A DNA stretch of 43,797 bases from an uncultured Pseudomonadota bacterium (GTDB taxonomy: Bacteria > Myxococcota_A > UBA796 > SXON01): positions 1 to 43,797 of the forward strand of contig CAJBVW010000050.1 in NCBI GenBank assembly GCA_903959175.1, given 5' to 3'. Both the position numbers and the translations under genes were made by a program. This document shows, piece by piece, positions 7,441 through 20,215 of the stretch; position 1 is the first letter of the stretch, and every line of letters begins with the position of its first letter. The notes beneath the pieces are model-generated. The model saw only the letters and a program-made list of their open reading frames with translations. It was not told where the DNA came from and ran no database searches.

Positions 7441-10440
7441 ATGTCTGATTCGGGCTCCGCCGCGCGGCCGCTCCGCGCCCTCCTGCTCCTCGGCTCCGCG
7501 ACCGCGCTCCTCCCCGGATGTGCGCCCGAGGGCTGTCTCTCCGGCGCGGAGGACTGCGTCGTCCCCTCCCCCTGCGAGACCGTCGCCTTCACTTGCGACG
7601 GTGGCTCCTCCGAGGTCTACGTCCTCGGCGTCGGCGATACGCTCCCCACCGAGAACGACACCCTCGCCTCGCCCGGCGACATCGTGCTCGCCAACGAGCA
7701 GATCGTCGCGGTGATCGAGGCGCTCGACCACCCGCACTACCTCGGGCCCACCGGCGGCGGCCTGATCGACCTCTACTCCCGCGGCGCGGCCAACGACTCG
7801 CTCCGCCACGTGTTCCCGACCACGGGCGTCCTCCCCGGCGACGCCGCGAACTTCACGTCCGTCGAGGTCCTGGAGGACGGCGACATCAAGGCCGTCCAGC
7901 TCCTCGGCACCCTCGACGGCTACCCCGACGTGCGCGTCGCCCAGCGCTACGAGATCCGCCCCTGCGAGCCCGGCGTGCGCATCCGCACCGAGATCGTCAA
8001 CGGCACCCCCGACTCCCTCTCCTGGTTCCCGACCGACGCCTGGTACTTCGGCGACCGCGGCAACCTCCCCTTCGTGCCCGGCAAGGGCATGGGCTTCACG
8101 TACCCGCCGTTCGGGTTGTCCACGTTGCTCGACGGCTTCCGCGACGTGCCGTTCATGGTGTCGAGCACCCACAGCGCCGCCGCGGCCTCCTACGCCGAGG
8201 TCGCGTGCAGCGAGGACGCCCTCTCCGGCTTCCACAGCGTGCAGATCTCCGCGATCGGGCAATCCCCGCGCGTCGTGCCGCCCCGCGACTACAGCGTGTT
8301 CGAGCGCTTCATCGCCGCGGTGGACGGTCGCTCCGTCTCCTCCGCCGCGGACGTGGCGCTGGAGCTCCGCCGCCAGCTCTTCGGCGAAGAATTCACCGAG
8401 CTCTCCGGCACGGTGGACGCCCCCGGCGGCACCATCGGCGAGGGCCTCCGCGTGAGCGTGCTCGTCTCCGAGGGCACCGCCGCCACGCCGGTCGACGCGC
8501 GCACCCCGTGGTCCCACACCTACCCGAACGACGACGGCACCTGGACCGTGCGCGTGCCCGCGGATCGCGACTACGTCGTCACGGCTGAAGCGTTCGGGCG
8601 CACCGAGGCCGAGGTCGAGGTGAGCGTCGGGAGCGCCGCGGCGACCGCCCCCGCCCTGACCCTCCCGGCCGTCGGCGAGGTCACGATCGACGCCCTCGTG
8701 GACGGCGCCGAGGACCACCTCCTCGTGTTCGTGGTCCCCGCGGACGACGCGACCGACGAGGCCACCGACGGCGAGATGTACGGCCACTTCGGCGCCTGCG
8801 CGCCGCTGCTCGGCAACCCGCACGGCCCCTCCCCGGCGTGCAACCGCGTGCTCGTCGACGGCCCCACGACGATCACCATCCCGCCCGGCACCTACGACTT
8901 CTTCACGGTCGCCGGCCCGTTCACGACGATGGGCGCGGCGCTCGGCGTGCGCATCGAGGCCGGCACCGGCCAGTCCGTCCTCCTCGAGCTCGAGTCCCTC
9001 GATCTGCAGCCCGCCGGCACGCTCTCCGGTGACTTCCACATCCACGGCGGCGCCTCGTTCGACTCGGGCATCCCCGACGCCGACCGCGTGAAGGCCTTCC
9101 TCGCCTCGCGCATCCAGGTGCTCGCGACGACCGAGCACGACACCGTGTGGGACTACTCCGACGCGGCGGAGTCCCTCGGCGCCGCCGACCGCCTCCACCT
9201 CATCGCGGGCACCGAGTCCACCGGCCACATCCTCTTCCCGTTCCGCAGCGACTACGGCTTCCCGCTCGTCGTCGGGCACTGGAACTTCTGGCCGCTCACC
9301 TTCGACCCCGCCGGCCCCTGGCGCGGCGCCTCGTGGGACGAACTGGCCGAGCCGGGCGCGCTCATGACCCGCCAGCGCGACGAGGGTTCGTGGGACGACG
9401 ACATCGGCGTCGCCCAGCTCAACCACCCCGTCGGCGGCCTGCAATTCGGGCGCAACTTCGGCTGGATCAGCGCGACCGGGATGGATCTTCGCGAGCCGCC
9501 GAAGACCGAGTACGACGGCACCGGCCAGAGCCTCATCTTCCACACCCCGGACGGCGCGGACTTCTCCAACGCCGACTACGACGTGCAGGAGGTGATGAAC
9601 GGCACCAAGAACGAGCTGCTGCTCTCCTACCGGACCTACTGGTTCTACCTGCTGAACCACGGCGTCGTCCGGGCCGGCACCGCGAACAGCGACTCGCACA
9701 CGCTCACCGAGAACGTGGTCGGTACGCCGCGCACGATCGTGTGGACCGACACGACCTTCGACGCCTTCGACCTAGGTGTCTTCGACGCCTCCCTCCGCGA
9801 GGGCCGCGCCATCGGCACGAACGGCCCCATCCTCGACGCCCGCATCGTCGGTGCCGGCGAGAGCTGGACGCCGTCGGTCCTCCCCATCGAGCCCCCGGGC
9901 GACGCGACGCTCGAGCTCACCGTCACCGCGGCGCCGTGGGTGCCGGTGGACGAGGTGCGCATCGTCGTGAACGGCGTGGTCGTGCGCACGCTCCGCGACG
10001 AGCTCTCCAGCCCGACCGACCCCTTCGGCCTCGACGGCACCGAGCGCCTCGTCGTCTCCATCCCCCTCTCGGAGCTCCTGCCGCTCGAAGAGGACAGCTG
10101 GATCGTGGTCGAGGCCGGCGCGCCGCTCGAGGAGAACCTCGACCTCGACTGTGACGGCGTCCCGGACACCGGCGACAACAACGAGGACGGCGCGATCGAC
10201 GCCTTCGACGTCGACACCGACGGCAACGGCGTCGTAGACGACCTCGACCCCCTCCCCGAAGACGTCGAGGGCTGCCTCTCGACGAGCGGACCGATGACCG
10301 AGCCGCCCGAGCCCGAGCGTGGGAGCGCCGACTGGTACTTCCGCGCCGTCACCCCGCCCCACGGCTACCCGATGTCCTTCACGAACCCCTTCCTGATCGA
10401 CACCAACGGCGACGGCGACTTCAACGGAGTGGACGAGTGA
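7441..10440 (+). CDS. PHP-domain (CehA-like) lipoprotein
   Basis: A 999-aa lipoprotein with Arg residues at the N-terminus, a hydrophobic stretch and the lipobox L-P-G-C (Cys27). The first half contains beta-sandwich regions, one like a carboxypeptidase regulatory fold (about 330-410). A PHP-type metallohydrolase domain spans about 525-800. It has 'DFHIH' (D531, H533, H535), 'TTEHD' (H566), 'GTES' (E592), 'NHP' (H662) and 'NSDSH' (D751, H753), the full metal-ligand pattern of the CehA/McbA group. The C-terminus has calcium-type Asp-rich loops (about 900-930 and the last 15 residues). Known PHP enzymes hydrolyse phosphoesters or phosphonates; the substrate here is unknown. It is coupled to the next gene through a GTGATG overlap. 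Confidence 0.75.
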   Translation: MSDSGSAARPLRALLLLGSATALLPGCAPEGCLSGAEDCVVPSPCETVAFTCDGGSSEVYVLGVGDTLPTENDTLASPGDIVLANEQIVAVIEALDHPHYLGPTGGGLIDLYSRGAANDSLRHVFPTTGVLPGDAANFTSVEVLEDGDIKAVQLLGTLDGYPDVRVAQRYEIRPCEPGVRIRTEIVNGTPDSLSWFPTDAWYFGDRGNLPFVPGKGMGFTYPPFGLSTLLDGFRDVPFMVSSTHSAAAASYAEVACSEDALSGFHSVQISAIGQSPRVVPPRDYSVFERFIAAVDGRSVSSAADVALELRRQLFGEEFTELSGTVDAPGGTIGEGLRVSVLVSEGTAATPVDARTPWSHTYPNDDGTWTVRVPADRDYVVTAEAFGRTEAEVEVSVGSAAATAPALTLPAVGEVTIDALVDGAEDHLLVFVVPADDATDEATDGEMYGHFGACAPLLGNPHGPSPACNRVLVDGPTTITIPPGTYDFFTVAGPFTTMGAALGVRIEAGTGQSVLLELESLDLQPAGTLSGDFHIHGGASFDSGIPDADRVKAFLASRIQVLATTEHDTVWDYSDAAESLGAADRLHLIAGTESTGHILFPFRSDYGFPLVVGHWNFWPLTFDPAGPWRGASWDELAEPGALMTRQRDEGSWDDDIGVAQLNHPVGGLQFGRNFGWISATGMDLREPPKTEYDGTGQSLIFHTPDGADFSNADYDVQEVMNGTKNELLLSYRTYWFYLLNHGVVRAGTANSDSHTLTENVVGTPRTIVWTDTTFDAFDLGVFDASLREGRAIGTNGPILDARIVGAGESWTPSVLPIEPPGDATLELTVTAAPWVPVDEVRIVVNGVVVRTLRDELSSPTDPFGLDGTERLVVSIPLSELLPLEEDSWIVVEAGAPLEENLDLDCDGVPDTGDNNEDGAIDAFDVDTDGNGVVDDLDPLPEDVEGCLSTSGPMTEPPEPERGSADWYFRAVTPPHGYPMSFTNPFLIDTNGDGDFNGVDE

Positions 10441-11291
10441 TGGGCACCTTCCTCCTGCTCGCCGCCTCGACCCTCGCCTGGGCCGGCCCCTGCGACACCG
10501 ACACCACCGGCATCGGCGTGGGGCCCGTCACCGTGGGTTTTCTCGACGGAGACCTCGGCGTGCCACGCCGCGTCTGCGGGCGCAGCGAGGTGGCGTTCGC
10601 GCCCGGCGGCTCCGCCGTGGTGGACACCGCCAACTTCTACGGCCACATCGTCGCCGGCGGCACCTTCGACGGGAGCTGGGCCCCGACCGCGAACACCGAG
10701 GTGTACGCGAGCGTCGAGGCCGTGCGCTACGACAGCGTCATCACCCCCATCTCCGCGAGCTACCTCGGCTTCGGCCACGTCGCGGTCGGCGCCACCCAGC
10801 GCCTCTGGACCGGCGAGACGGCCGCGATCGCCGTGCATGGCCGGGTCGTCGCCCCCACCGCCGTCGGGCTGTACCAGAACGCCTGGCCGCTCGGCCTCGA
10901 CGTCGGCGTCGCCGGCACCTGGGCGCCGGTGGAGAGCCTCAGCGTGCACGCGGACGTGGGCGGCCTCGGCTCCGCGGCGGTGTCCGCCGGACCGGCCTTC
11001 CCGCGCGGCGGCGCCCGCGTCACCGTTGGCGCGGCGTGGCACCCCGTTCGGCCCTTCGCGCTCGTGCTCGATGTGACCTCGGGCTTCGGCTACACCGCGC
11101 CCGTCGATGTCGTGGCGGGCTCGCTCGGCGTGCGCGTCGGCGTCGGGAAGCGCGTCGGCATCGAGCTCGGCGCGGCGGTGCCCCTCGTGGGCCGGGAGCG
11201 CGCGCTCGCGGCGGGGGAGCTCAAGGTGAACGTGCGGCTCGGGAAGCTCGCCGACTCCGTGGCGCCCGTGGTTCCCGTCCCGACCCCCTGA
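10437..11291 (+). CDS. Putative outer-membrane beta-barrel protein
   Basis: A 284-aa exported protein with a short signal peptide cleaved near A-W-A/G. The mature part is made of alternating hydrophobic/polar strands rich in Gly, Val and Ala, such as 'RLWTGETAAIAVHGRVV' and 'GLDVGVAGTWAPVESLSVHA', which suggests 10-12 transmembrane beta strands. No close family is recognised. The GTG at 10437 has GGAG 7 nt upstream; the ATG at 10440 is the alternative. Both overlap the stop of the PHP lipoprotein, so the two are probably made together and may act together at the outer membrane. Confidence 0.6.
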   Translation: MMGTFLLLAASTLAWAGPCDTDTTGIGVGPVTVGFLDGDLGVPRRVCGRSEVAFAPGGSAVVDTANFYGHIVAGGTFDGSWAPTANTEVYASVEAVRYDSVITPISASYLGFGHVAVGATQRLWTGETAAIAVHGRVVAPTAVGLYQNAWPLGLDVGVAGTWAPVESLSVHADVGGLGSAAVSAGPAFPRGGARVTVGAAWHPVRPFALVLDVTSGFGYTAPVDVVAGSLGVRVGVGKRVGIELGAAVPLVGRERALAAGELKVNVRLGKLADSVAPVVPVPTP

Positions 11292-11298
11292 CGTCGGA

Positions 11299-11326
11299 GC
11301 GCCGCCCCCCACGCGGGAGGCGGCGC
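11299..11326. terminator. Hairpin between convergent genes
   Basis: A perfect 8-bp inverted repeat (GCGCCGCC / GGCGGCGC) with a 12-nt loop, lying between the convergent genes ending at 11291 and 11347. No T-run follows on either strand, so it may be a weak bidirectional terminator or only an RNA 3' end structure. Confidence 0.45.
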
Positions 11327-11346
11327 CCCTGTCCACACGGGAGCCC

Positions 11347-12999
11347 CTACCCGGCGGCCACGGCCACCATCCCGCCGAAGGCCGCGGCGATGGCGCTCAC
11401 CACGGCGGTCGCCACGCTCCACCACGCGGCGGTCGCGGCGGTCTTGCGCGCCTCCTCCGCCTGCCGGAGCGTCTCGTCCCGTGCGACCAGGAGCCGGCGC
11501 TCGACCTCGTCCCGGAGCGCGCGCACGCGCCGGTTCACCGAGTCCCGCGCGGCCTCCACCTGCTGGATGATGCGCTCGGCGTCGTTCTCGTCGAGGTCGC
11601 GGCGCGAGGCGAGGATCGCCTTGATGGTGTCGCGGTCGACGGCCTTGATGCGCTCGGCGATCGCGTCCGCGCCCACGCCGGGCTCCTCGAGGAGGCGCTC
11701 CACGTCCGCGCGGATGCCCTCGTAGTCGAGCCCAGGGCGCTTGAGCGACTCGAGGTAGGCGCGCACCTTGCTGGTCACGCGCTCGCGGGCCGCGGCGGTG
11801 TCGGGGCCGCCGATCGCCGGCACGCCGATGGCCTGCCCCCGCGCGAGGAGCGCCCGCCCCCACCGCTCGACGGTGTCGACGATGCGGTGCGCCTCCTCCG
11901 AGGTCACGTCGGAGCGCTGCGCGAGCACCGCCACGAGCGTGTCGCGGTCGAAGAGGCGCGCGCGCTCCTTGAGCGCCGCGAGGCCCATCGCCGGCTCCGC
12001 GAAGAGCCGCTCGAGGTCCCGCTTGATCCCGTCCGGATCGAGGGCCTCCTTGCCCGTGCTCCGCAGCCACTCCTCCACGCGGGTGCGCGCGGAGACGGCC
12101 TCGTCCTTGCTGCGCCCGGTCAGGCGGAGCGCGGTGTCGGCGACGGTGGTGAGGCGGTCCTTCCCGGAGAAGGCCTCTTCCTTGATGACCCGCAGCGCGT
12201 CGTCCACGCCCTGGGCCACCGCGTGGAGCTGCTGGACCTCCTTGCGCACATCGGCCGGGCTGATGGGCTTGGGCGCGAGCTGCTCGACGTAGCCGCGGAT
12301 CTCGTCGCGCACGCGGTCCATGCGCACGTCGCGGAAGAGCTCTTCCTTCACCGAGCGGGTGATCCGCGCGGCGACGTCGGCGGCGCGGGACTCGTCCGAA
12401 CGCGCCATCGCTCCGGACATCCCGCCCCAGGTGGTGCGGATCCCCGCGCCGACCGTGCGGAGAAGCGTCCCGACGAGAGACCACGCCGCCGTGGCCCGGA
12501 CGGTGGACATCACGAGGTAGAAGAGCGCCCAGATCGTGAGGCCGATGATCGCGCCGAGCAGCCCGCTGATCGTGAGGCTGAGCTCGACGGCGAGCCAGCT
12601 CGCGAAGAAGAGCGCGATGCTGGCCGTGACGAGCGCCCAGAGGCCGATGCCGCTGGTGAGCTGACGGGCGCGCTCCCCGAACGTGCGCCCCTTGCCGGCG
12701 CGCGGGTACCGCTCGGGCTCGTCCGAGTCGCCGGGCCCGATGCGCATCGCGCTCACCCCGGCGGCGAACGAGAGGTTGGTGAGCAGGAATTGGAAGCCGA
12801 CCGCCAGGACGAGGCCGGCGACGATGGCGAGCCAGAAGTGGGATCCCGCGAGGAGCGCGGCGGCGCGCTCCGGCGACATCGGGATCGGTTCTTGCGCGTG
12901 CGCTACGTCGACGAGCCCGGGTGTCACACCCAGCCCGCCGAAGAAGAGCACGCCGAGAAGCAGCACCTTCCGGGCCCCCCGGATTGCGAGACGAAGCAT
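11347..12999 (-). CDS. Membrane protein with helical DxxxIxxxLE repeats
   Basis: A 550-aa protein. It has a signal-like N-terminus ending in A-H-A/Q-E, three hydrophobic segments in roughly residues 45-165, a long soluble helical region (about 200-500) and a final hydrophobic segment (about 520-548). The soluble part contains at least two clear copies of a roughly 65-residue repeat. In each, 'I+.D[VL]ER[LF].EP' is followed by 'DRDT[IL].A[IV]LA.R.D[LV]', then 'EAHRIVDTVERWG' in one copy and 'DAERIIQQVEAAR' in the other. A weaker copy precedes them. I do not know the family; it resembles repeat proteins that sense or organise membranes. I chose the ATG at 12999 after a G-run; an upstream TTG at 13011 is possible. 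Divergent from the PAD gene. Confidence 0.65.
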   Translation of the reverse strand: MLRLAIRGARKVLLLGVLFFGGLGVTPGLVDVAHAQEPIPMSPERAAALLAGSHFWLAIVAGLVLAVGFQFLLTNLSFAAGVSAMRIGPGDSDEPERYPRAGKGRTFGERARQLTSGIGLWALVTASIALFFASWLAVELSLTISGLLGAIIGLTIWALFYLVMSTVRATAAWSLVGTLLRTVGAGIRTTWGGMSGAMARSDESRAADVAARITRSVKEELFRDVRMDRVRDEIRGYVEQLAPKPISPADVRKEVQQLHAVAQGVDDALRVIKEEAFSGKDRLTTVADTALRLTGRSKDEAVSARTRVEEWLRSTGKEALDPDGIKRDLERLFAEPAMGLAALKERARLFDRDTLVAVLAQRSDVTSEEAHRIVDTVERWGRALLARGQAIGVPAIGGPDTAAARERVTSKVRAYLESLKRPGLDYEGIRADVERLLEEPGVGADAIAERIKAVDRDTIKAILASRRDLDENDAERIIQQVEAARDSVNRRVRALRDEVERRLLVARDETLRQAEEARKTAATAAWWSVATAVVSAIAAAFGGMVAVAAG

Positions 13000-13136
13000 G
13001 GTCCCCCCCAAAGACGCAAGCTAGGCGCCGGCCCCTGCGAGGGAAGCGCGTCGCCCGGCGGCGGCGGACAAATCCCGGGGGCACACAGGCGGGCGCGGCG
13101 CGGGTCGGCTACGGTTGCGGGCCCCGCGGAGCCTCG

Positions 13137-14702
13137 ATGTCCTTGCGCAGCCTCTTGGTTCCGTGCGTCCTGTTCGGGCTCGCCGCCTGCACGGGCAAGC
13201 CCGACGCGGACGTGGTCACGCCCGACCCCGACGCCCTCTCGGCAGACCCGCTCTACGGTGTCCCCAACGTCGATGACGACGACCAGAACGGCGAAGTCGA
13301 CTGGGACGACGCCGGCGTGGACGGCGAGAACGACCGCGCGCTCCTCGAGCTCGGCGCCGACGGCCCCGTGGAGCTCACGCTCGCCGGAGACGTCGACGTG
13401 GTGCGGATCTGGCGGGACGGCGACATCGTGCTCGACGCCGGCGTGACCACCGCCACGGTGGACGGCGGCACGCTCGAGGTCGAGTTCGGCGGCTTCCTCG
13501 CCCAGGCGACGCTCACCGTCACCCTCGTGGACGATCCCGACGTGACCGCCACCCGCGCGCTCACCTCGGCGCCGCTCATCCTGAACAACCACATGCAGAG
13601 CGCCGAGCTCGTGGTGGCGATGTCGTACACGGGTCGCTCCGGGAACGAGGCCTTCGTGGCCGGCTTCTCCGATGCGCTCGGCGAGAGCTTCACCCCGATC
13701 GACCTGCGCGACTACCAGAACGACGTGTGGGTGCAGGACGAGCTCGAGTTCGCCACTTTGAACTCCCCGGACCACCGCATGGACGTCGTCATCGACTCCA
13801 TCCGCTCGACCCGCGGCGGCCTGGACGACGTGCCGGAAGACCTCTTCGAGGCGCCCGACACCGCGGTCCACACCTGGGGTTCCGGGCGGGCAACCTCGCA
13901 GGACTCCTTCGGCAACCTCGAGGTCTCGCCCCCCGTCACGGTCGGCGGCGTGGAGTACCCCTTCGGCCGCATCTACTGGGGCACCTACCGCGGGAAGGGA
14001 GTCACGGAAGAGCTGGCCGAGTTCCTCGAAGATCAGCGCGTGCAGGACCCCTTCCAGGTCGACAACAGCTGGCTCTGTGTCGGCCACGTCGACGAGTTCT
14101 CCAGCTTCGTGCCCGACCCCACCGCGCCCAAGGGCTTCCGCTTCCTCTACGCGGACACGCGCCTCGGCCGCACCTTCCTCGAGGGCGTCAGCCCCGAGAC
14201 CTCGCTGCCCCGGTACCGCACCGGCCACGGCTACGCGACCGTCGGAGACATGCTCGACGACGCCGCGTTGTGGTCCGCAAACGCCGACATGCAGGCCGAC
14301 TACCTCGACCCGAACCTCGCCATCTTCAAGGCCGAGCTCGGCCTGGACGACGCCGACATCGTCCTCGTCCCCGGCCTCTTCGAGGAGAACGAGCTCTGCG
14401 GCGGCGACGCCCTCGCGCTCATCCCCGCCACGGTCAACCTGGTCGTCGCCGACATCGGCACCGGCACCCCGCAGATCTTCCTGCCGGACCCGTTCCTGCG
14501 CGCCGACGAGGACGATCAAGCCTCGGACCCGTTCATCGCCGCCGTCTCCGCGCTCCTGCCCACCTCGCTCGACCTCCACTGGCTGGACGACTGGGACTGG
14601 TACCACCTCGCGTGGGGCGAGGTTCACTGCGGCAGCAACACCCAGCGTACGCCGGTTCGCGACTGGTGGACGGACGCCATGCACCTCCTGGAGGGCGAAT
14701 GA
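13137..14702 (+). CDS. Lipoprotein peptidyl-arginine deiminase (PAD/PADI-like)
   Basis: A 521-aa lipoprotein (lipobox L-A-A-C, Cys18). The body matches the PAD middle and catalytic domains of animal peptidyl-arginine deiminases, which turn peptidyl-arginine into citrulline. Visible matches are 'WVQDE' (D201), 'DSFGNLEVSPPVTVGG', 'VGHVDEFSSFVP' (H317, D319), 'KGFRFLYAD' and 'WGEVHCGSN' (C498). These correspond to human PAD4 D350, H471, D473 and C645. An Asp-rich loop at about 43-53 matches the calcium-binding start of the PAD middle domain. The N-terminal cupredoxin-like PAD domain is absent, which fits the length of 521 against about 663. GGAG lies 5 nt before the ATG. The stop overlaps the next start (ATGA). 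Activity would be periplasmic or at the cell surface. Confidence 0.9.
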   Translation: MSLRSLLVPCVLFGLAACTGKPDADVVTPDPDALSADPLYGVPNVDDDDQNGEVDWDDAGVDGENDRALLELGADGPVELTLAGDVDVVRIWRDGDIVLDAGVTTATVDGGTLEVEFGGFLAQATLTVTLVDDPDVTATRALTSAPLILNNHMQSAELVVAMSYTGRSGNEAFVAGFSDALGESFTPIDLRDYQNDVWVQDELEFATLNSPDHRMDVVIDSIRSTRGGLDDVPEDLFEAPDTAVHTWGSGRATSQDSFGNLEVSPPVTVGGVEYPFGRIYWGTYRGKGVTEELAEFLEDQRVQDPFQVDNSWLCVGHVDEFSSFVPDPTAPKGFRFLYADTRLGRTFLEGVSPETSLPRYRTGHGYATVGDMLDDAALWSANADMQADYLDPNLAIFKAELGLDDADIVLVPGLFEENELCGGDALALIPATVNLVVADIGTGTPQIFLPDPFLRADEDDQASDPFIAAVSALLPTSLDLHWLDDWDWYHLAWGEVHCGSNTQRTPVRDWWTDAMHLLEGE

Positions 14703-15622
14703 GCCTCTTCCTGTTCGCGCTCTCCCTCTCCGGCACGCTCGCCCTCGCCGGCACGCCGGCCCCCGCCCGGATCGACCCCGGCGTGGACGCCCCCGCGGCG
14801 CTCCTCCCCGCCGCGCTCCTCCCCGCTGCCAACGCCGCCCTCGCCGCTCCCAGCGCCCGGGCGCTCGCCACCGCCCCCGTGACGGACGCCACCCTCGCCG
14901 CCCTCGCCACGAACGCCGGCTGGCGCCTCCGCGCCCGCGCCGGCGCCGCCCTCGTGTGGCGGCGTGACGCCCCGCTCGCCGAGGCGATCACGACGCTCGC
15001 GCCCGTGAGCACGCGCACCGGCGCTGCCCGCTTCACCGACGCGCGCGTCCGCAGCGCCGCCGCCACGCCGCTCCTGCTCGAGCGCCTCCTCTCGGGCGTC
15101 GGGACCTCGGGCGACCGCGCCGCGATCGTCGAGGCCGTGCGCTTCTCCGAGGGCCACTGGAGCGACGCCGTCGCCGGCCTGGTCGCCGCCGAGCGGGATC
15201 CCGCCGTGCGTGAGCAGCTGGTCGGGGCGCTCCGCCACGCCGACCCGGAGGACGCCGCCGCGGCCCTCCCCCTCGCCGCGAAGGACACCTCCCCCGCCGT
15301 GCGGGCGGCCGCCATGCGCGCGATCGGGTCCCGCGAGGACGGCGCCACCTACGCCCCCCTCGCGCTCACCGCGCTGACCGACGTCGATCCCGACGTCCGC
15401 GCCCACGCCGCGCGCGCCGTCGGCTGGCTCGGCCTCTCCGCGGGCTGGGACGACGTCGTCGCCCTCCTCGCGGACCCCGACGCCGAGGTGCGCCTCAAGG
15501 CCGTCGCCGCGCTCGAGCGCCTCGACCCCGCCGCCGCCGCCGCCCTCCCCGCGATGCGCGCGCGCCTCACCGATCCCGACGCGCGCGTGGCGCGTGCCGC
15601 GGAGCGCCTCCTTGGCCGCTGA
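14699..15622 (+). CDS. Exported HEAT-repeat protein coupled to PAD
   Basis: A 307-aa protein with an N-terminal signal peptide (about 1-18, ending L-A-L-A/G). It has a run of HEAT-like helical pairs such as 'VRAAAMRAIGSRED', 'VRAHAARAVGWLG', 'VRLKAVAALERLD' and 'VARAAERLLGR' in the last 150 residues. HEAT repeats form curved protein-binding solenoids. The start codon overlaps the PAD stop by 4 nt, so the pair is translationally coupled. This protein may bind the deiminase or its substrate in the periplasm. No enzymatic motif is visible. The first 120 residues are Ala-rich and less regular. Confidence 0.75.
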   Translation: MSLFLFALSLSGTLALAGTPAPARIDPGVDAPAALLPAALLPAANAALAAPSARALATAPVTDATLAALATNAGWRLRARAGAALVWRRDAPLAEAITTLAPVSTRTGAARFTDARVRSAAATPLLLERLLSGVGTSGDRAAIVEAVRFSEGHWSDAVAGLVAAERDPAVREQLVGALRHADPEDAAAALPLAAKDTSPAVRAAAMRAIGSREDGATYAPLALTALTDVDPDVRAHAARAVGWLGLSAGWDDVVALLADPDAEVRLKAVAALERLDPAAAAALPAMRARLTDPDARVARAAERLLGR

Positions 15623-15668
15623 CGCGGGCCGATTGGAACTTATCCCTTTCTCAACCAGGGGAATGGGA

Positions 15669-16154
15669 ATGGCATGGATCTGGCTCCTCGTGGGCTGCGC
15701 CACGAACGGGGGGAACGCGGACGGCCTCGTCCTGAACGAGCTGCTCGCGCGGAACGCCGTCACGAACACCGACGACGCCGGGGAGTTCGACGACTGGGTC
15801 GAGATCTTCAACGGCGGCACCGAGCCCATCGCGCTCACGGGCCTGCACCTCTCGGACGACGCCGCCGCGCCCGCCCGCTGGCCCTTCCCCGAGGGTGACC
15901 CCCTCGAGCCCGGCGCGTACCTCCTCGTCTGGTGCGACGGGCAGCCCGAGCAGGGCGACTTCCACGCCCCGTTCAAGCTCGGCGGGAACGGCGAGTCCGT
16001 GCTCCTCTCCTACATCGAGGACGGGGCACCCACGACGCTCGACGCGGTCGATTACACCGAGCAGACCGCCGATGTTGCCTGGGCGCGGGTCCCGGACGGC
16101 GGCATCGAGTGGGTCACCGCCACGCCGACTCCGGGCGACACGAACGGCGGGTGA
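15669..16154 (+). CDS. Lamin-tail-domain lipoprotein
   Basis: A 161-aa protein with a very short hydrophobic leader and a plausible lipobox L-V-G-C (Cys10). The rest is a lamin-tail (LTD) immunoglobulin-like domain: 'LVLNELLARN', 'DDWVEIFNGGTEPIALTGLHLSDD', and a final 'WARVPDGGIEWVTATPTPGDTN'. In secreted bacterial proteins this fold often serves as an adhesion or binding module. I chose the ATG at 15669 because AGGGG lies 7 nt upstream; the ATG at 15663 is too close to that site. It follows the HEAT gene by 46 nt on the same strand. Confidence 0.75.
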   Translation: MAWIWLLVGCATNGGNADGLVLNELLARNAVTNTDDAGEFDDWVEIFNGGTEPIALTGLHLSDDAAAPARWPFPEGDPLEPGAYLLVWCDGQPEQGDFHAPFKLGGNGESVLLSYIEDGAPTTLDAVDYTEQTADVAWARVPDGGIEWVTATPTPGDTNGG

Positions 16155-16169
16155 GTTAGATGGGTTCCG

Positions 16170-16565
16170 ATGACCCCCGCTGAGATCGAACGTGTCCGCC
16201 GCCGCCTGACCGAGCTGCGCGCCGAAGTAGAAGGCGCCGGCGCCGTCGCCGTCCGCGCTGAAGACATCGGCCCCGTCCCCAGCGCGGCGGACGAGGACGA
16301 GGCCCCCTTCCGCGAGATGGACCAATCCATCGCCAGCAGCCGCAACCGCGTCCGCGCGGACCAGCTCCTCCGCATCGTGGACGCCGAGCGCCGCCTGGAG
16401 GAGGATCCCGACAGCTTCGGCCTCTGCGCCAAGTGCGAGGAGGAGATCCCTCCCCGCCGGCTCGAGCTGCTGCCGTTCGTGCGCTACTGCGTCTCCTGCC
16501 AGTCGGCCGCCGAGAGCAAGTCCGCGAAGCCCGTCCGCAAGAAGGTCATGGACTACCACGAGTAG
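16170..16565 (+). CDS. DksA/TraR-family zinc-finger protein
   Basis: A 131-aa protein with the C4 zinc finger of the DksA/TraR family: C86 and C89 ('LCAKC') paired with C107 and C110 ('YCVSC'), followed by a basic C-terminus. The N-terminal two thirds is helical and could form the coiled-coil hairpin that enters the RNA polymerase secondary channel. The D-x-x-D-x-A tip motif of E. coli DksA is not evident, so it may be a DksA paralogue with a different effect on transcription. It starts 15 nt after the lamin-tail gene. Its last 20 nt overlap the convergent gene at 16546-16758. Confidence 0.8.
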   Translation: MTPAEIERVRRRLTELRAEVEGAGAVAVRAEDIGPVPSAADEDEAPFREMDQSIASSRNRVRADQLLRIVDAERRLEEDPDSFGLCAKCEEEIPPRRLELLPFVRYCVSCQSAAESKSAKPVRKKVMDYHE

Positions 16566-16758
16566 TCGGGGTCTCCTCCACCCCCGCGCGAGGGAGGCTG
16601 GCGACCTGGAGCGTCGTCGTCTCGCGCATCCCTTCGACCTGCGGGATGCGGTTGTTGCGCCACAGGAGCCACCCCACGACGACCAGCAGGATGCCGAGCC
16701 CGACGATCCAAGGGAGGATGTTGCCCCTGGGCCGCTGTTCGATGTCGATGTTCGCCAC
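16546..16758 (-). CDS. Small single-pass membrane protein
   Basis: A 70-aa protein: a short polar N-terminus, one strong membrane segment (about 15-32, 'ILPWIVGLGILLVVVGWLLW') and a polar tail of about 37 residues. The GTG at 16758 is chosen because GGAGG lies 9 nt upstream; the longer upstream frame is Arg-rich and has no such signal. It lies downstream of the CsbD-like gene on the same strand, separated by a hairpin, so the two may form a stress-related operon. The 3' end overlaps the convergent DksA-like gene. Confidence 0.65.
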   Translation of the reverse strand: MANIDIEQRPRGNILPWIVGLGILLVVVGWLLWRNNRIPQVEGMRETTTLQVASLPRAGVEETPTTRGSP

Positions 16759-16846
16759 GGTAGTGCGCCTCCGTGCTGCCCTCACTAGGCACCGGGGGCC
16801 GGCGAGCCTGCGGCGCCCGGGCGCGGCTGGCAAGACGTGACAGGGT

Positions 16847-16875
16847 GGGAGGCCCGGCGCGGGGCCGAGCCTCCC
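16847..16875 (-). terminator. GC hairpin downstream of CsbD gene
   Basis: A 7-bp perfect stem (GGGAGGC / GCCTCCC) with possible further pairing inside, starting 10 nt after the CsbD-like stop codon. It has no T-run. It could end or reduce transcription into the small membrane-protein gene. Confidence 0.4.
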
Positions 16876-16884
16876 GGCGCCACG

Positions 16885-17160
16885 CTAGTGCTTGTCGCCC
16901 TTGCGCGGGGTGGCGGTGCCGCCGCCGGGCGCGCCGGCGCGGTCCTTGTTCGGGCTGGCCGGGCCCATCTTCGCGGTGAAGTCGGTGAGCTTCTGCTCGG
17001 CGATGTCGCGGGAGTAGCCGTAGCGCTCCTGCAACTTCCCGAGGAACTGATCGCGGCGGCCGTCGATCTTCTCGAGGTCGTCGTCGGTCAGCTTCGCGAA
17101 GGTCTCGCGAACCGAGGTCGTGTACTGTTTCCAGTTGGTCTGGATGCGGTCCCAATTCAT
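16885..17160 (-). CDS. CsbD-like stress-response protein
   Basis: A 91-aa protein. Its first 60 residues follow the CsbD pattern: 'MNWDRIQTNWKQ' at the start, then 'KLTDDDLEKIDGRRDQFLGK' and 'QERYGYSRDIAEQKLTDF'. CsbD-type proteins are small, abundant and induced by general stress; their biochemical function is not known. The tail is Gly/Pro/Lys-rich and probably disordered. AGGAG lies 6 nt before the ATG. A sigma-70-like promoter sits at 17220-17247. Confidence 0.85.
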   Translation of the reverse strand: MNWDRIQTNWKQYTTSVRETFAKLTDDDLEKIDGRRDQFLGKLQERYGYSRDIAEQKLTDFTAKMGPASPNKDRAGAPGGGTATPRKGDKH

Positions 17161-17219
17161 GGTGAGCTCCTGGTCGAGGGGTGGCGGGGAAAGCCGAGCC
17201 GGTTGAGCTTGGCACGGTA

Positions 17220-17247
17220 CTTTTAGGGTCCGCCCCTCGGGAGTCAA
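17220..17247 (-). promoter_or_regulatory. Sigma-70-like promoter for CsbD gene
   Basis: On the minus strand TTGACT (17247-17242), a 16-nt spacer, then TAAAAG (17225-17220). This would start transcription about 50 nt before the CsbD-like ATG. The region is distinctly richer in A/T than its surroundings. Confidence 0.5.
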
Positions 17248-17389
17248 CGGCCCCCGATGACTCTATTTTCAGCCTCTACGCTCGCTTTTTTCGATCCACG
17301 GACACGTCCGGACCCCATCCGCGGCGCGGCCCTCCCGGTGGACGCCGAACGGGGCCGCCGCTTACGTGCGCGCCGCCACGAGCGTGTCG

Positions 17390-18286
17390 ATGTCCTTCCG
17401 GCCCCCCTTCCGCCCGCGGCGTCGCCGCAACCCCGAGCCCCTCGCCGTCCTCGCGCAGGGAGAGCACTGGATCGTCGTCGCGAAGCCGCCGTCGCTGCTC
17501 GTGCACCGCTCCGAGATGTTGCCGGGCGCCGAGGCCGCGCTGCAGGTCGTCCGCGACCAGGTGGGCAAGCACGTCTACCCCATCCACCGCCTGGATCGGC
17601 CCGCCTCCGGCTGCCTCCTCTTCGCCACGACCCAGGAGTGGGCCGGCCCGCTCTCCGCGGCGATGTCCAGCGCGGACGCCCAGAAGACCTACCTCGCCTT
17701 CGTCCGCGGGGCGTTCAAGGCCGACGGCCCGGTGGTGATCGACCGCCCGATGAAGGACGACAACGGCATCCCGCGCGAGGCCTCCTCCACCGTGTGGTGC
17801 CTCGGCCGCAGCGACGACCCGCGCTGCTCGCTCCTCAAGGTCCAGCCGCAGACCGGCCGCTACCACCAGGTGCGCCGCCACGTTCGGGACCTGATGCACC
17901 CCATCATCGGCGACACCGACCACGGCGACAGCAAGGTCAACCGCTGGTGGCGCGAGAACGGCGGCGTGACCCGCCTCGGCCTGCACTGCGCGTCCCTCTC
18001 GCTCGCCCTCCCCGACGGCACCCGCGTCGACGCGGTCTCCCCGCTCTTCGAGGACCACCACCGCGTGTGGTCGACCATGCCCTGGTGGGCCGACGCCGTC
18101 GCCGCGTTCCCCTCCCTCGCCCTGCCCCCGCTGCCCCTGCGCGAGACGGACGACGTGCGCTCCCCCGCCCCCTACGTCGAGGGCGCGGCCCCCGAGGCCG
18201 ACGAACCCGATGACGCCGACGCGGGCGACGACCCCGATCTGCTCGACGACAGCGCGCTCCTGGGCCTCTCGCTGACCGAGGAGTAG
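17390..18286 (+). CDS. truC: tRNA pseudouridine synthase C (RluA family)
   Basis: A 298-aa enzyme of the RluA pseudouridine synthase family, closest in pattern to TruC, which makes pseudouridine-65 in tRNA. The catalytic motif HRLDR is present (D69), preceded by 'VRDQVGKHVY', and 'KPPSLLVHRS' lies near the N-terminus. 'PQTGRYHQVRRH' and 'HPIIGDTDHGD' match TruC rather than RluC/D. No S4 domain is present, as expected. The N-terminus has an Arg-rich stretch. The last 40 residues are an acidic tail absent from E. coli TruC. I chose the ATG at 17390; a GTG at 17366 is possible. The tesB gene starts 3 nt after the stop. Confidence 0.85.
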   Translation: MSFRPPFRPRRRRNPEPLAVLAQGEHWIVVAKPPSLLVHRSEMLPGAEAALQVVRDQVGKHVYPIHRLDRPASGCLLFATTQEWAGPLSAAMSSADAQKTYLAFVRGAFKADGPVVIDRPMKDDNGIPREASSTVWCLGRSDDPRCSLLKVQPQTGRYHQVRRHVRDLMHPIIGDTDHGDSKVNRWWRENGGVTRLGLHCASLSLALPDGTRVDAVSPLFEDHHRVWSTMPWWADAVAAFPSLALPPLPLRETDDVRSPAPYVEGAAPEADEPDDADAGDDPDLLDDSALLGLSLTEE

Positions 18287-18289
18287 ACG

Positions 18290-19156
18290 ATGCGCGACAC
18301 CCTCTCGGAGCTGCTCACCCTCCTCCGCCTCGAGCGGATCGAGGAGCGCCTCTTCCGCGGCCAGAGCCAGGACCTCGGCTGGGGCTCCGTGTTCGGCGGA
18401 CAGGTGCTCGGGCAGGCGCTCTCCGCCGCCGCCCAGACCGTGCCGGGCGAGCGCCCCGTCCACTCGCTGCACGCCTACTTCCTGCGCCAAGGGGACGCCC
18501 GGCGCCCCATCGTCTACGAGGTCGACCCCATCCGGGACGGCGCCAGCTTCACCACGCGGCGCGTCGTCGCCGTGCAGGGCGGGCACGCGATCTTCACCCT
18601 GGCGTCGAGCTTCCAGGTGGAGGAGCCCGGGCTGGAGCACTCCGCCGGCATGCCCGACGTGCCCGGCCCCGAGGGCCTCCTCTCCGAGCTCGACATGGCC
18701 CGGAAGTACGAGGCCAACATCCCCGAGCCGCTCCGCGCGATGGCGCTGGCCGACCGCCCGATCGAGATCCGCCCGGTCCAACGCTTCGATCTCCTCAACC
18801 CGAAGGTCGCGCCGCCGCGCCGCCAGCTCTGGTACCGCGCCACCGGCCGCCTCCCGGACGATCCCGCCGTCCACCGCTACCTGCTCGCGTACGCCTCGGA
18901 CTTCAACTTCCTCATCACGGCGATGCTGCCGCACGGCGTGAGCTGGCTGACGCCCGGCCTCCAGGTCGCGAGCCTCGACCACGCGATGTGGTTCCACCGC
19001 CCGTTCCGCATGGACGACTGGTTGCTCTACGACGTGGAGTCGCCGTCGGCAGGCGGAGCACGCGGGCTGGTGTTCGGGCGCTTCTACACCCGGGACGGGC
19101 AGCTCGTGGCGAGCGTGACGCAGGAAGGGTTGATGCGGGATCGGCGCGGGGCCTGA
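18290..19156 (+). CDS. tesB: Acyl-CoA thioesterase II
   Basis: A 288-aa double-hotdog thioesterase that hydrolyses acyl-CoA to free fatty acid and CoA in the cytoplasm. The length and numbering match E. coli TesB closely: the catalytic residues fall at D204 ('YASDFNFL'), S228 (Thr in E. coli) and Q278 ('VTQEGLMR'). 'LGWGSVFGGQVLGQAL' and 'VHSLHAYFLRQGD' are typical N-terminal motifs. GAGGAG for this start lies within the end of truC, 6 nt before the ATG, so the two are an operon. Confidence 0.93.
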   Translation: MRDTLSELLTLLRLERIEERLFRGQSQDLGWGSVFGGQVLGQALSAAAQTVPGERPVHSLHAYFLRQGDARRPIVYEVDPIRDGASFTTRRVVAVQGGHAIFTLASSFQVEEPGLEHSAGMPDVPGPEGLLSELDMARKYEANIPEPLRAMALADRPIEIRPVQRFDLLNPKVAPPRRQLWYRATGRLPDDPAVHRYLLAYASDFNFLITAMLPHGVSWLTPGLQVASLDHAMWFHRPFRMDDWLLYDVESPSAGGARGLVFGRFYTRDGQLVASVTQEGLMRDRRGA

Positions 19157-19216
19157 ACCGAAGGGGCTGCGCTGGCCGCCCCGCTACCCTTCGTAGATCC
19201 CGCGCTACCCTTTCGG

Positions 19217-19241
19217 CGGGGACGCCCCGCCCGAGTCCCCG
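19217..19241 (+). terminator. Hairpin after tesB
   Basis: A 7-bp inverted repeat (CGGGGAC / GTCCCCG) in the 129-nt gap between tesB and the DUF218 gene, without a T-run. Just before it, the 10-mer CGCTACCCTT occurs twice (19180s and 19204), an unexplained short direct repeat. Confidence 0.3.
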
Positions 19242-19285
19242 TCCGGGCGTTCGGGCCCGGCACGCCGCTTGCTGTCGCCCTCCGC

Positions 19286-19852
19286 ATGCGCCCCCACCGG
19301 TACCTGCTCGCCGCCGCCCTCCTCGTCCTCTCGCACGCCGGCTGGCTCGTCGCCGATGGCCTCACGGACGACGCGCAGCCCGCCGACGTCGCGGTCGTGC
19401 TCGGCACCACCGCCAACCCCGACGGCACGCTCTCGCCGCGCCTGGAGGCCCGCACAGGGGCCGCGCTGGCCCTCTACGAGCAGCAGCGGGTGCGCCGCAT
19501 CCTGGTCAGCGGCGCGACCGGCGAGGAAGGCGTCAACGAGGCGCAGGCGATGGCGGACTGGCTCGTTGCGCACGGCGTACCGCGCCGGCACGTGCTCGTA
19601 GACGCCGAGGGCTGGAACACCTGGGAGACGGCCCTCCACACGCGCCAGCTCCTCGACGAGGCGGGCTACTCCACCGTGGTCGCGGTCAGCAGCTACTACC
19701 ACCTGCCGCGCACGCGGATGGCGCTGGAGCACGCAGGGGTCGACGTGGTCGGCACGCAGAAGGCCGCGCTCTTGTGGGAGCCGCGGGAGGCGTACTCGAT
19801 CCTGCGGGAGGTCGCCGCGACGTACGCGTACCTGCTCCAGGATCGGGCCTAG
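19286..19852 (+). CDS. DUF218 (YdcF/SanA-like) membrane-anchored protein
   Basis: A 188-aa protein with an N-terminal hydrophobic anchor (about 6-24) followed by the DUF218 fold: 'ADVAVVLGTTANPDGTLSPRLEAR', 'RRILVSGATGEEGVNEAQAMADWL', 'NTWETALHTRQLL', 'VVAVSSYYHLPRTRMALEHAG'. SanA and related proteins are linked to envelope barrier function and peptidoglycan or glycan metabolism, but no reaction is established. Downstream of tesB on the same strand; the end is 7 nt from the convergent lapA. Confidence 0.88.
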   Translation: MRPHRYLLAAALLVLSHAGWLVADGLTDDAQPADVAVVLGTTANPDGTLSPRLEARTGAALALYEQQRVRRILVSGATGEEGVNEAQAMADWLVAHGVPRRHVLVDAEGWNTWETALHTRQLLDEAGYSTVVAVSSYYHLPRTRMALEHAGVDVVGTQKAALLWEPREAYSILREVAATYAYLLQDRA

Positions 19853-19859
19853 CGCCGAG

Positions 19860-20156
19860 CTACGTCCCCGCCCAAGGGTCCTTGGCCCGCGGCGCCGCCA
19901 TCGCGATCTCCTGCTCGAGCTGCCGCACCTTTCGCGAGAGGCTCGACGCGCGGACGGCAAACCACCCGCCCGCGAGCAGGAGCCCGCCGACGAAGGAGCT
20001 CCACATCAGGAGCGGCACGCCCACGGGGCTGCGGAGCTTCCAGGCGGCGACGTACAGATCGAGCTGCAACGGCGCGCGGAAGCTGCTGTTCTGGAGAGTG
20101 AACGCGGTCAGGACCACCGCGACGAGCACGACGAGCACAAGCCATACCCACCGCAT
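19860..20156 (-). CDS. lapA: LapA-domain (DUF1049) inner-membrane protein
   Basis: A 98-aa protein with two membrane segments (about 4-20 and 48-65) around 'FTLQNSSFRAPLQLDLYVAAWKLRSPVGVPLLMW', then a basic coiled-coil-like tail. This is the LapA/DUF1049 layout. In E. coli LapA (YciS) works with LapB to control LPS synthesis through LpxC stability, and lapA lies downstream of rpsA-ihfB. Here it also follows rpsA, without ihfB. GGAGG is 5 nt before the ATG at 20156. No LapB-type TPR gene is nearby. The family is clear; a LapB-linked role is inferred. Confidence 0.8.
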   Translation of the reverse strand: MRWVWLVLVVLVAVVLTAFTLQNSSFRAPLQLDLYVAAWKLRSPVGVPLLMWSSFVGGLLLAGGWFAVRASSLSRKVRQLEQEIAMAAPRAKDPWAGT

Positions 20157-20176
20157 GTCCGCCTCCGAAAGCAGGA

Positions 20177-20215
20177 ACGGCCCGCCCCCCGTTGTCGCCA
20201 ACAGGGACGGGCCGT
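20177..20215 (-). terminator. Long hairpin downstream of rpsA
   Basis: An 8-bp outer stem (ACGGCCCG / CGGGCCGT) encloses an inner CCC-GTTG / CAAC-a-GGG stem. On the minus strand it is followed by a T-rich TTCCTGCTTT. It lies between the rpsA stop and the lapA start, so it probably ends or attenuates rpsA transcription ahead of lapA. Confidence 0.55.

Follow-up and report, generated by a model that had tools for sequence, protein, structure and literature searches.

What would a bacterium use a relative of the animal citrullinating enzymes for, and which protein would work with it? This question is raised by a gene on a stretch of 43,797 nucleotides (nt) of DNA from an uncultured Pseudomonadota bacterium, assigned to Myxococcota_A in the GTDB lineage (contig CAJBVW010000050.1 of assembly GCA_903959175.1); the whole stretch is called the window below. 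The gene lies at 13137..14702 on the + strand, with its ATG start at 13137 and its TGA stop at 14700-14702, and its 521-residue product had been described in an initial annotation, made from the sequence alone, as a lipoprotein version of vertebrate protein-arginine deiminase (PAD, also PADI). PADs of the window's phylum form two clades, here called type I (the window's kind) and type II (Streptomyces-like). The type-I gene is joined to a gene for an exported HEAT-repeat protein, and this pairing recurs at every intact type-I locus of the window's class that could be assessed. We consider it rather probable that the window encodes a calcium-dependent, lipid-anchored PAD of the cell envelope that works with the HEAT protein encoded directly downstream.

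The PAD family itself is no novelty in bacteria, where members have already been annotated, in Streptomyces for instance. Cummings et al. (2021; PMC8826395) distinguished two types of PADI, listed 69 proteobacterial species with PADIs, placed the proteobacterial proteins with the fungal and actinobacterial type, and described calcium sites 2 and 4 as exclusive to animals and late cyanobacteria. In the literature that we searched, no paper dealt with PADs of Myxococcota or with a PAD-HEAT pair, in agreement with the earlier remark that such enzymes are little described, and none gave a physiological role or native substrate for a bacterial PAD of this family.

Results

Relationship to animal PADs

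Judged by sequence comparison, the similarity of the window open reading frame (ORF) to PADs is far beyond chance. Pfam family PF03068 matched residues 141-511 (E=1.8e-68; 231.8 bits against a cut-off of 25), and the best relatives in the PDB, searched with phmmer, were human PAD1 (2.2e-46), PAD2 (4.4e-45) and PAD4 (5.6e-44), which bears out the animal-type catalytic domain that had been proposed. The near-identical blocks singled out in the initial annotation were found again: human PAD2 and PAD4 carry DSFGNLEVSPPVTV and VGHVDEF without a single change, the residues after VGHVDEF being different, and GEVHCG also occurs in both. The accompanying claim that the match spans the middle as well as the catalytic domain stood only for the latter in Pfam, where PAD_M gave no match to the window protein and weak matches in 8 of the 39 relatives of alignment A1. 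A profile built from homologues, however, aligned with human PAD4 over the PAD_M region and onwards as far as the C terminus (2.5e-115). The PAD_M-like domain therefore appears to be short and too divergent for Pfam, its match being visible only in profile alignments. PAD_N is absent, as had been stated: Pfam gave no match, and only about 25 residues separate C18 from the calcium loop.

All four catalytic residues named in the initial annotation are in place. D201, H317, D319 and C498 align with D350, H471, D473 and C645 of PAD4 and are invariant in the 64 bacterial PADs aligned. D201 lies in the motif QDELE (13734..13748, + strand), H317 and D319 in CVGHVD (14076..14093, + strand), and the predicted nucleophile C498 (14628..14630, + strand) in GEVHCG. 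For calcium we used the ligands of the PAD4 structures. On this mapping Ca1 is complete (Q200 and E204 of QDELE, with F258, L261 and E262), and Ca2 is represented by E202 of QDELE and by D220 and S221 of DSIRS (13794..13808, + strand), with S224 replacing N373. The Asp-rich calcium loop of the PAD_M-like domain, N44-D66 (NVDDDDQNGEVDWDDAGVDGEND; 13266..13334, + strand), aligns with N153-D176 of PAD4 and was correctly recognized at the outset: six of its residues, N44, D46, D48, D55, D58 and D66, correspond to the PAD4 ligands N153, D155, D157, D165, D168 and D176. In addition, E116 corresponds to E252. These residues represent the Ca3-5 ligands of PAD_M, of which the Asp at the position of D179 is missing (L69). 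The Ca2 ligands are shared by type-I and human proteins and set them apart from type II and Streptomyces, since the Glu is found in 27/27, the Asp in 25/27 and the Ser in 24/27 type-I proteins of the class, whereas the 26 type-II rows and the 3 from Streptomyces have neither the Glu nor the Asp. From these alignments we judge it very probable that the protein is a working deiminase of the PAD type.

PPAD, the citrullinating enzyme of Porphyromonas gingivalis, is built on an agmatine deiminase that has been extended; its catalytic domain is distant and PAD_M is absent. By contrast, the protein of the window matches PF03068 and animal PADs and carries a calcium loop of the PAD_M type. Both would be pentein-fold citrullinating enzymes that a bacterium exports (PMC8826395).

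Probable export and a paired cysteine signature

The PAD begins with a type II (lipoprotein) signal peptide, MSLRSLLVPCVLFGLAAC (13137..13190, + strand), in which the lipobox LAAC places C18 as the predicted lipidated residue. The lipobox had been reported before and is well conserved, as its Cys column in alignment A1 holds Cys in 37/37 homologues from the phylum and Thr in both Streptomyces rows. Within the phylum the lipid anchor does not set this gene apart, as nearly all PADs there are lipoproteins. Two further cysteines, C314 in CVGHVD and C421 (14397..14399, + strand), are both present in 34 of 35 type-I proteins and both gone in one lineage (L008 and its relative L014), and type-II PADs have neither. 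Joint presence or joint absence of this kind is expected of a disulfide, and we infer a C314-C421 bond in the window protein. The jointly lost pair is thus a second sign of export, independent of the lipobox, and on the two together the PAD is very probably an extracytoplasmic lipoprotein.

A HEAT-repeat gene accompanies type-I PADs

The gene that follows (14699..15622, + strand) overlaps the PAD stop codon by 4 nt (ATGA) and encodes a protein of 307 residues, which has HEAT repeats (Pfam HEAT_2, 1.1e-14) and a Sec-type signal peptide. Counting genes of the window's class that were intact, readable downstream and not the first of a tandem, a HEAT gene lay directly 3' of the type-I PAD in 28/28 cases, always starting within -4 to +4 nt of the PAD stop (spacings of 4 nt, 1 nt or near zero). 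One locus (L080, G056:C110, 3935-8111, - strand) carries a tandem of two type-I PAD genes with a single HEAT gene after it. The arrangement was found again at 8/8 type-I loci from two families outside the class that were fetched afterwards. At loci of other kinds (27 of type II from the initial set and 8 lacking a type-I PAD that were fetched later) it was seen in 0/35, apart from one match of 20 bits, and when the other window neighbours from 7441 to 20201 were tested, none was conserved next to the PAD beyond the genus. Chance adjacency is rejected on the locus counts together with the check outside the class.

At the level of whole genomes, with HEAT orthologues called at E<=1e-30 across 379 genomes of the phylum, an orthologue was present in 46, comprising all 36 genomes with type-I PADs and 10 of the 343 others; it was absent from all 58 genomes that have PADs but none of type I. 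The co-occurrence with type-I PADs is strong (Fisher p ~1e-41, with the reservation that related genomes are not independent), and pairwise distances of PAD and HEAT proteins are correlated (r=0.75; 0 of 2000 permutations). The 10 remaining HEAT genomes belong to one genus (g6) of the window's family and lack a PAD; no PAD stood beside the HEAT gene at the seven g6 loci examined. A type-I PAD thus implies a HEAT gene, but a HEAT gene does not imply a PAD. From this pattern a functional partnership between the two proteins is highly probable.

An AlphaFold2 (AF2) model of the HEAT partner is a helical solenoid with a predicted local distance difference test score (pLDDT) of 87.6, and it drew only generic HEAT/armadillo matches from the PDB. 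Ahead of the repeats lies a conserved hairpin, TRTGAARFTD (residues 105-114; 15011..15040, + strand), in which R106 is invariant (27/27) and G108 nearly so (25/27); strand pairs 103-104/110-111 are formed there in the model.

HEAT orthologues without a PAD occur at the g6 loci L083-L089, L091 and L111. At L111, the best-read of them, the HEAT gene stands alone; genes for a lipoprotein and for an apparent efflux pump lie on the other strand. Further HEAT homologues lie away from a PAD gene at G365:C36:180813-181562, G365:C28:212309-213094 and G245:C45:217644-218360, where a quick look at the ORFs revealed no PAD alongside. Elsewhere in the window, the product of 7441-10440 (+ strand) is probably a lipoprotein and contains a metallohydrolase domain of the CehA/McbA type (NF038032, 8.3e-30); its gene shares 4 nt with the gene that follows at 10437. 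The ORF at 15594-16154 (+ strand), which probably starts nearer 15666, encodes a small protein that has a lamin tail domain (PF00932, 4.1e-10) and is a putative lipoprotein.

Two clades of PAD in one phylum

PAD genes are carried by 3/22 genomes of the window's family, 23/63 of its order, 29/71 of its class and 94/379 of its phylum. The notion that such enzymes are rare in bacteria fails for this phylum, and the window's PAD is not a lone oddity of its genome. In the phylogenetic tree, a branch with ultrafast bootstrap and SH-aLRT (Shimodaira-Hasegawa-like approximate likelihood-ratio test) values of 100/99 separates type I plus human PADs from type II plus Streptomyces. The tree is unrooted and includes no cyanobacterial sequence, so that a sister relationship of type I to animals is not proven by it. 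Counts of the two types at genome level rest on the fetched loci and the HEAT search, not all PADs of the phylum having been placed by the tree, and many of the genomes are metagenome-assembled genomes (MAGs) with some contamination.

Most carrier genomes have one full type-I copy, and three (G056, G058 and G257) have two; at L017, L113 and L115, type-I copies or fragments sit at contig edges where neighbours are unreadable. No PAD relatives were found in viral contigs, and no cyanobacterial PAD sequences were found on plasmids. Two loci carry degraded genes. A type-II gene at L112 (G032:C187, 778-2685, + strand) has lost its catalytic residues (GHVDE to PVVSK and GEVHCG to GGLTNV) and may encode a bacterial PAD pseudoenzyme; barring MAG contamination, genome G032 also has an intact type-I PAD. 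Both PADI types within one genome were not seen by Cummings et al. (PMC8826395). At L114 (G061:C341, 845-1255, + strand), a decayed C-terminal PAD fragment reads GHVGTGTK instead of GEVHCGTN.

Discussion

The sequence comparisons support the enzyme type, the export and the partnership well, and they suggest how the pair might operate. The PAD would be exported and lipidated and would fold in a calcium-rich setting outside the cytoplasm; there it would form the C314-C421 disulfide, and its C498 would deiminate arginines of proteins. With less certainty, the HEAT solenoid would be a dedicated client of the PAD or an adaptor that presents substrates to it. We favour this role because an intact type-I PAD is never found without the HEAT gene, while the HEAT gene persists PAD-free in one genus, and we put the chance that the HEAT protein is specifically a client or adaptor at about even.

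Several observations weigh against an envelope PAD working with the HEAT protein in this manner. The AF2 model of the PAD was built from four sequences only and, with a pLDDT of 47.9, is too poor for a check of the active site; Foldseek searches with it ranked human PADs first, at a template modelling (TM) score of ~0.31. R374 and R639 of PAD4, which contact the peptide backbone in that enzyme, are a gap and A492 in the window protein, and substrate choice may therefore differ from that of human PADs. Co-inheritance within one clade inflates the linkage counts, the loci being not fully independent. Genus g6, which lacks PADs, likewise retains R106 of the HEAT hairpin; this arginine would therefore not be only a citrullination site but at least partly structural, and its candidacy as such a site is weakened. 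The fragment at L114 has no HEAT gene beside it, with an intact PAD-HEAT pair elsewhere in the same genome. Furthermore, HEAT repeats occur among the immunity proteins of polymorphic toxins (PMC3482391).

The alternative that survives best, though unlikely, keeps the PAD at the cell surface and has it act mainly on foreign proteins or peptides, whether of prey, competitors or the environment; the HEAT protein would then serve the enzyme in the periplasm as its chaperone or activator. The lipid anchor and export suit such targets, predatory bacteria occur in the window's phylum, and the PAD depends on the HEAT gene rather than the reverse. A pure chaperone, however, would not be expected to outlast its enzyme across a whole genus, as the HEAT protein does in g6.

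Less probable still is a toxin/immunity pair, in which the lipoprotein PAD would be passed to neighbouring cells and the HEAT protein would confer immunity. SitA toxins of myxobacteria are lipoproteins transferred by outer membrane exchange, with the immunity gene directly after the toxin gene (PMC5562445), and the window pair resembles SitA/SitI in that a lipoprotein gene is followed by a small partner gene; besides the HEAT repeats of known immunity proteins, the PAD-free HEAT genes of g6 could be orphan immunity genes. Of the SitA-type hallmarks, however, the PAD has the downstream gene and neither the variable C-terminal toxin domain nor the several cassettes per strain. Polymorphic toxins swap C-terminal domains on mobile elements, whereas the PAD is mostly single-copy, its catalytic domain is constant, its N-terminal part aligns as PAD_M with no delivery domain, and the pair is uniform and vertically conserved, with both partners kept over many families and diverging in a correlated way. 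Moreover, an exported HEAT protein could protect against periplasmic activity only.

We also regard it as improbable, to a slightly greater degree, that the window protein is a pentein-fold guanidine hydrolase of small molecules, such as free arginine or its derivatives, and modifies no proteins. The pentein fold does include arginine and agmatine deiminases, and the two peptide-contact residues of PAD4 are not kept; nevertheless, the similarity is to PADs proper over the whole length, the PAD_M calcium loop included, and a cyanobacterial relative in the family citrullinates proteins (PMC8826395). Passive inheritance of an adjacency with no functional meaning is the most improbable reading, for although type-I PADs are one clade and a single ancestral adjacency could account for all cases, no other neighbour is kept beyond the genus, the HEAT gene stays within -4 to +4 nt in families whose PADs are only 40-50% identical, and the tandem duplication at L080 still ends in HEAT.

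An exported PAD partnered by the HEAT protein can be set against the described members of the family. With animal PAD1-4 (PADI1-4) the window protein shares the catalytic tetrad, the Ca1 and Ca2 ligands, the DSFGNLEVSPPVTV block, the Asp-rich PAD_M loop and the side of the tree; it differs in having no PAD_N, a short and divergent PAD_M, a lipoprotein signal, an extra cysteine pair and a HEAT partner gene, and it lacks equivalents of Asp179, Arg374 and Arg639 of PAD4. PADs of the fungal and actinobacterial type, among them those of Streptomyces and the type-II proteins of the phylum, have PF03068, the catalytic residues and the two-domain layout in common with type I, and the type-II proteins of the phylum are lipidated too, but type II lacks the Ca2 ligands, the C314/C421 pair and the HEAT neighbour. 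Cyanobacterial PADIs belong to the same bacterial family; the late cyanobacterial clade has calcium site 2, as does type I, and retains a degenerate PAD_N (PMC8826395), whereas type I has no PAD_N match.

A wider proposal, which we hold tentatively and rate as somewhat less than probable, is that type-I PAD and the HEAT protein form an undescribed, dedicated citrullination module of the envelope, present in several families of one phylum, with the HEAT solenoid as a regulated client. The lineage of the PAD would then be of animal type, lie outside cyanobacteria, and be older than the transfer from cyanobacteria to animals or run parallel to it. The HEAT gene as genetic partner of type-I PADs is new, and this constant neighbour provides a concrete first candidate for a client or regulator of a bacterial PAD. 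In addition, calcium site 2, held to be a mark of animals and late cyanobacteria, occurs in a further bacterial phylum, a finding relevant to the question of how citrullination reached animals.
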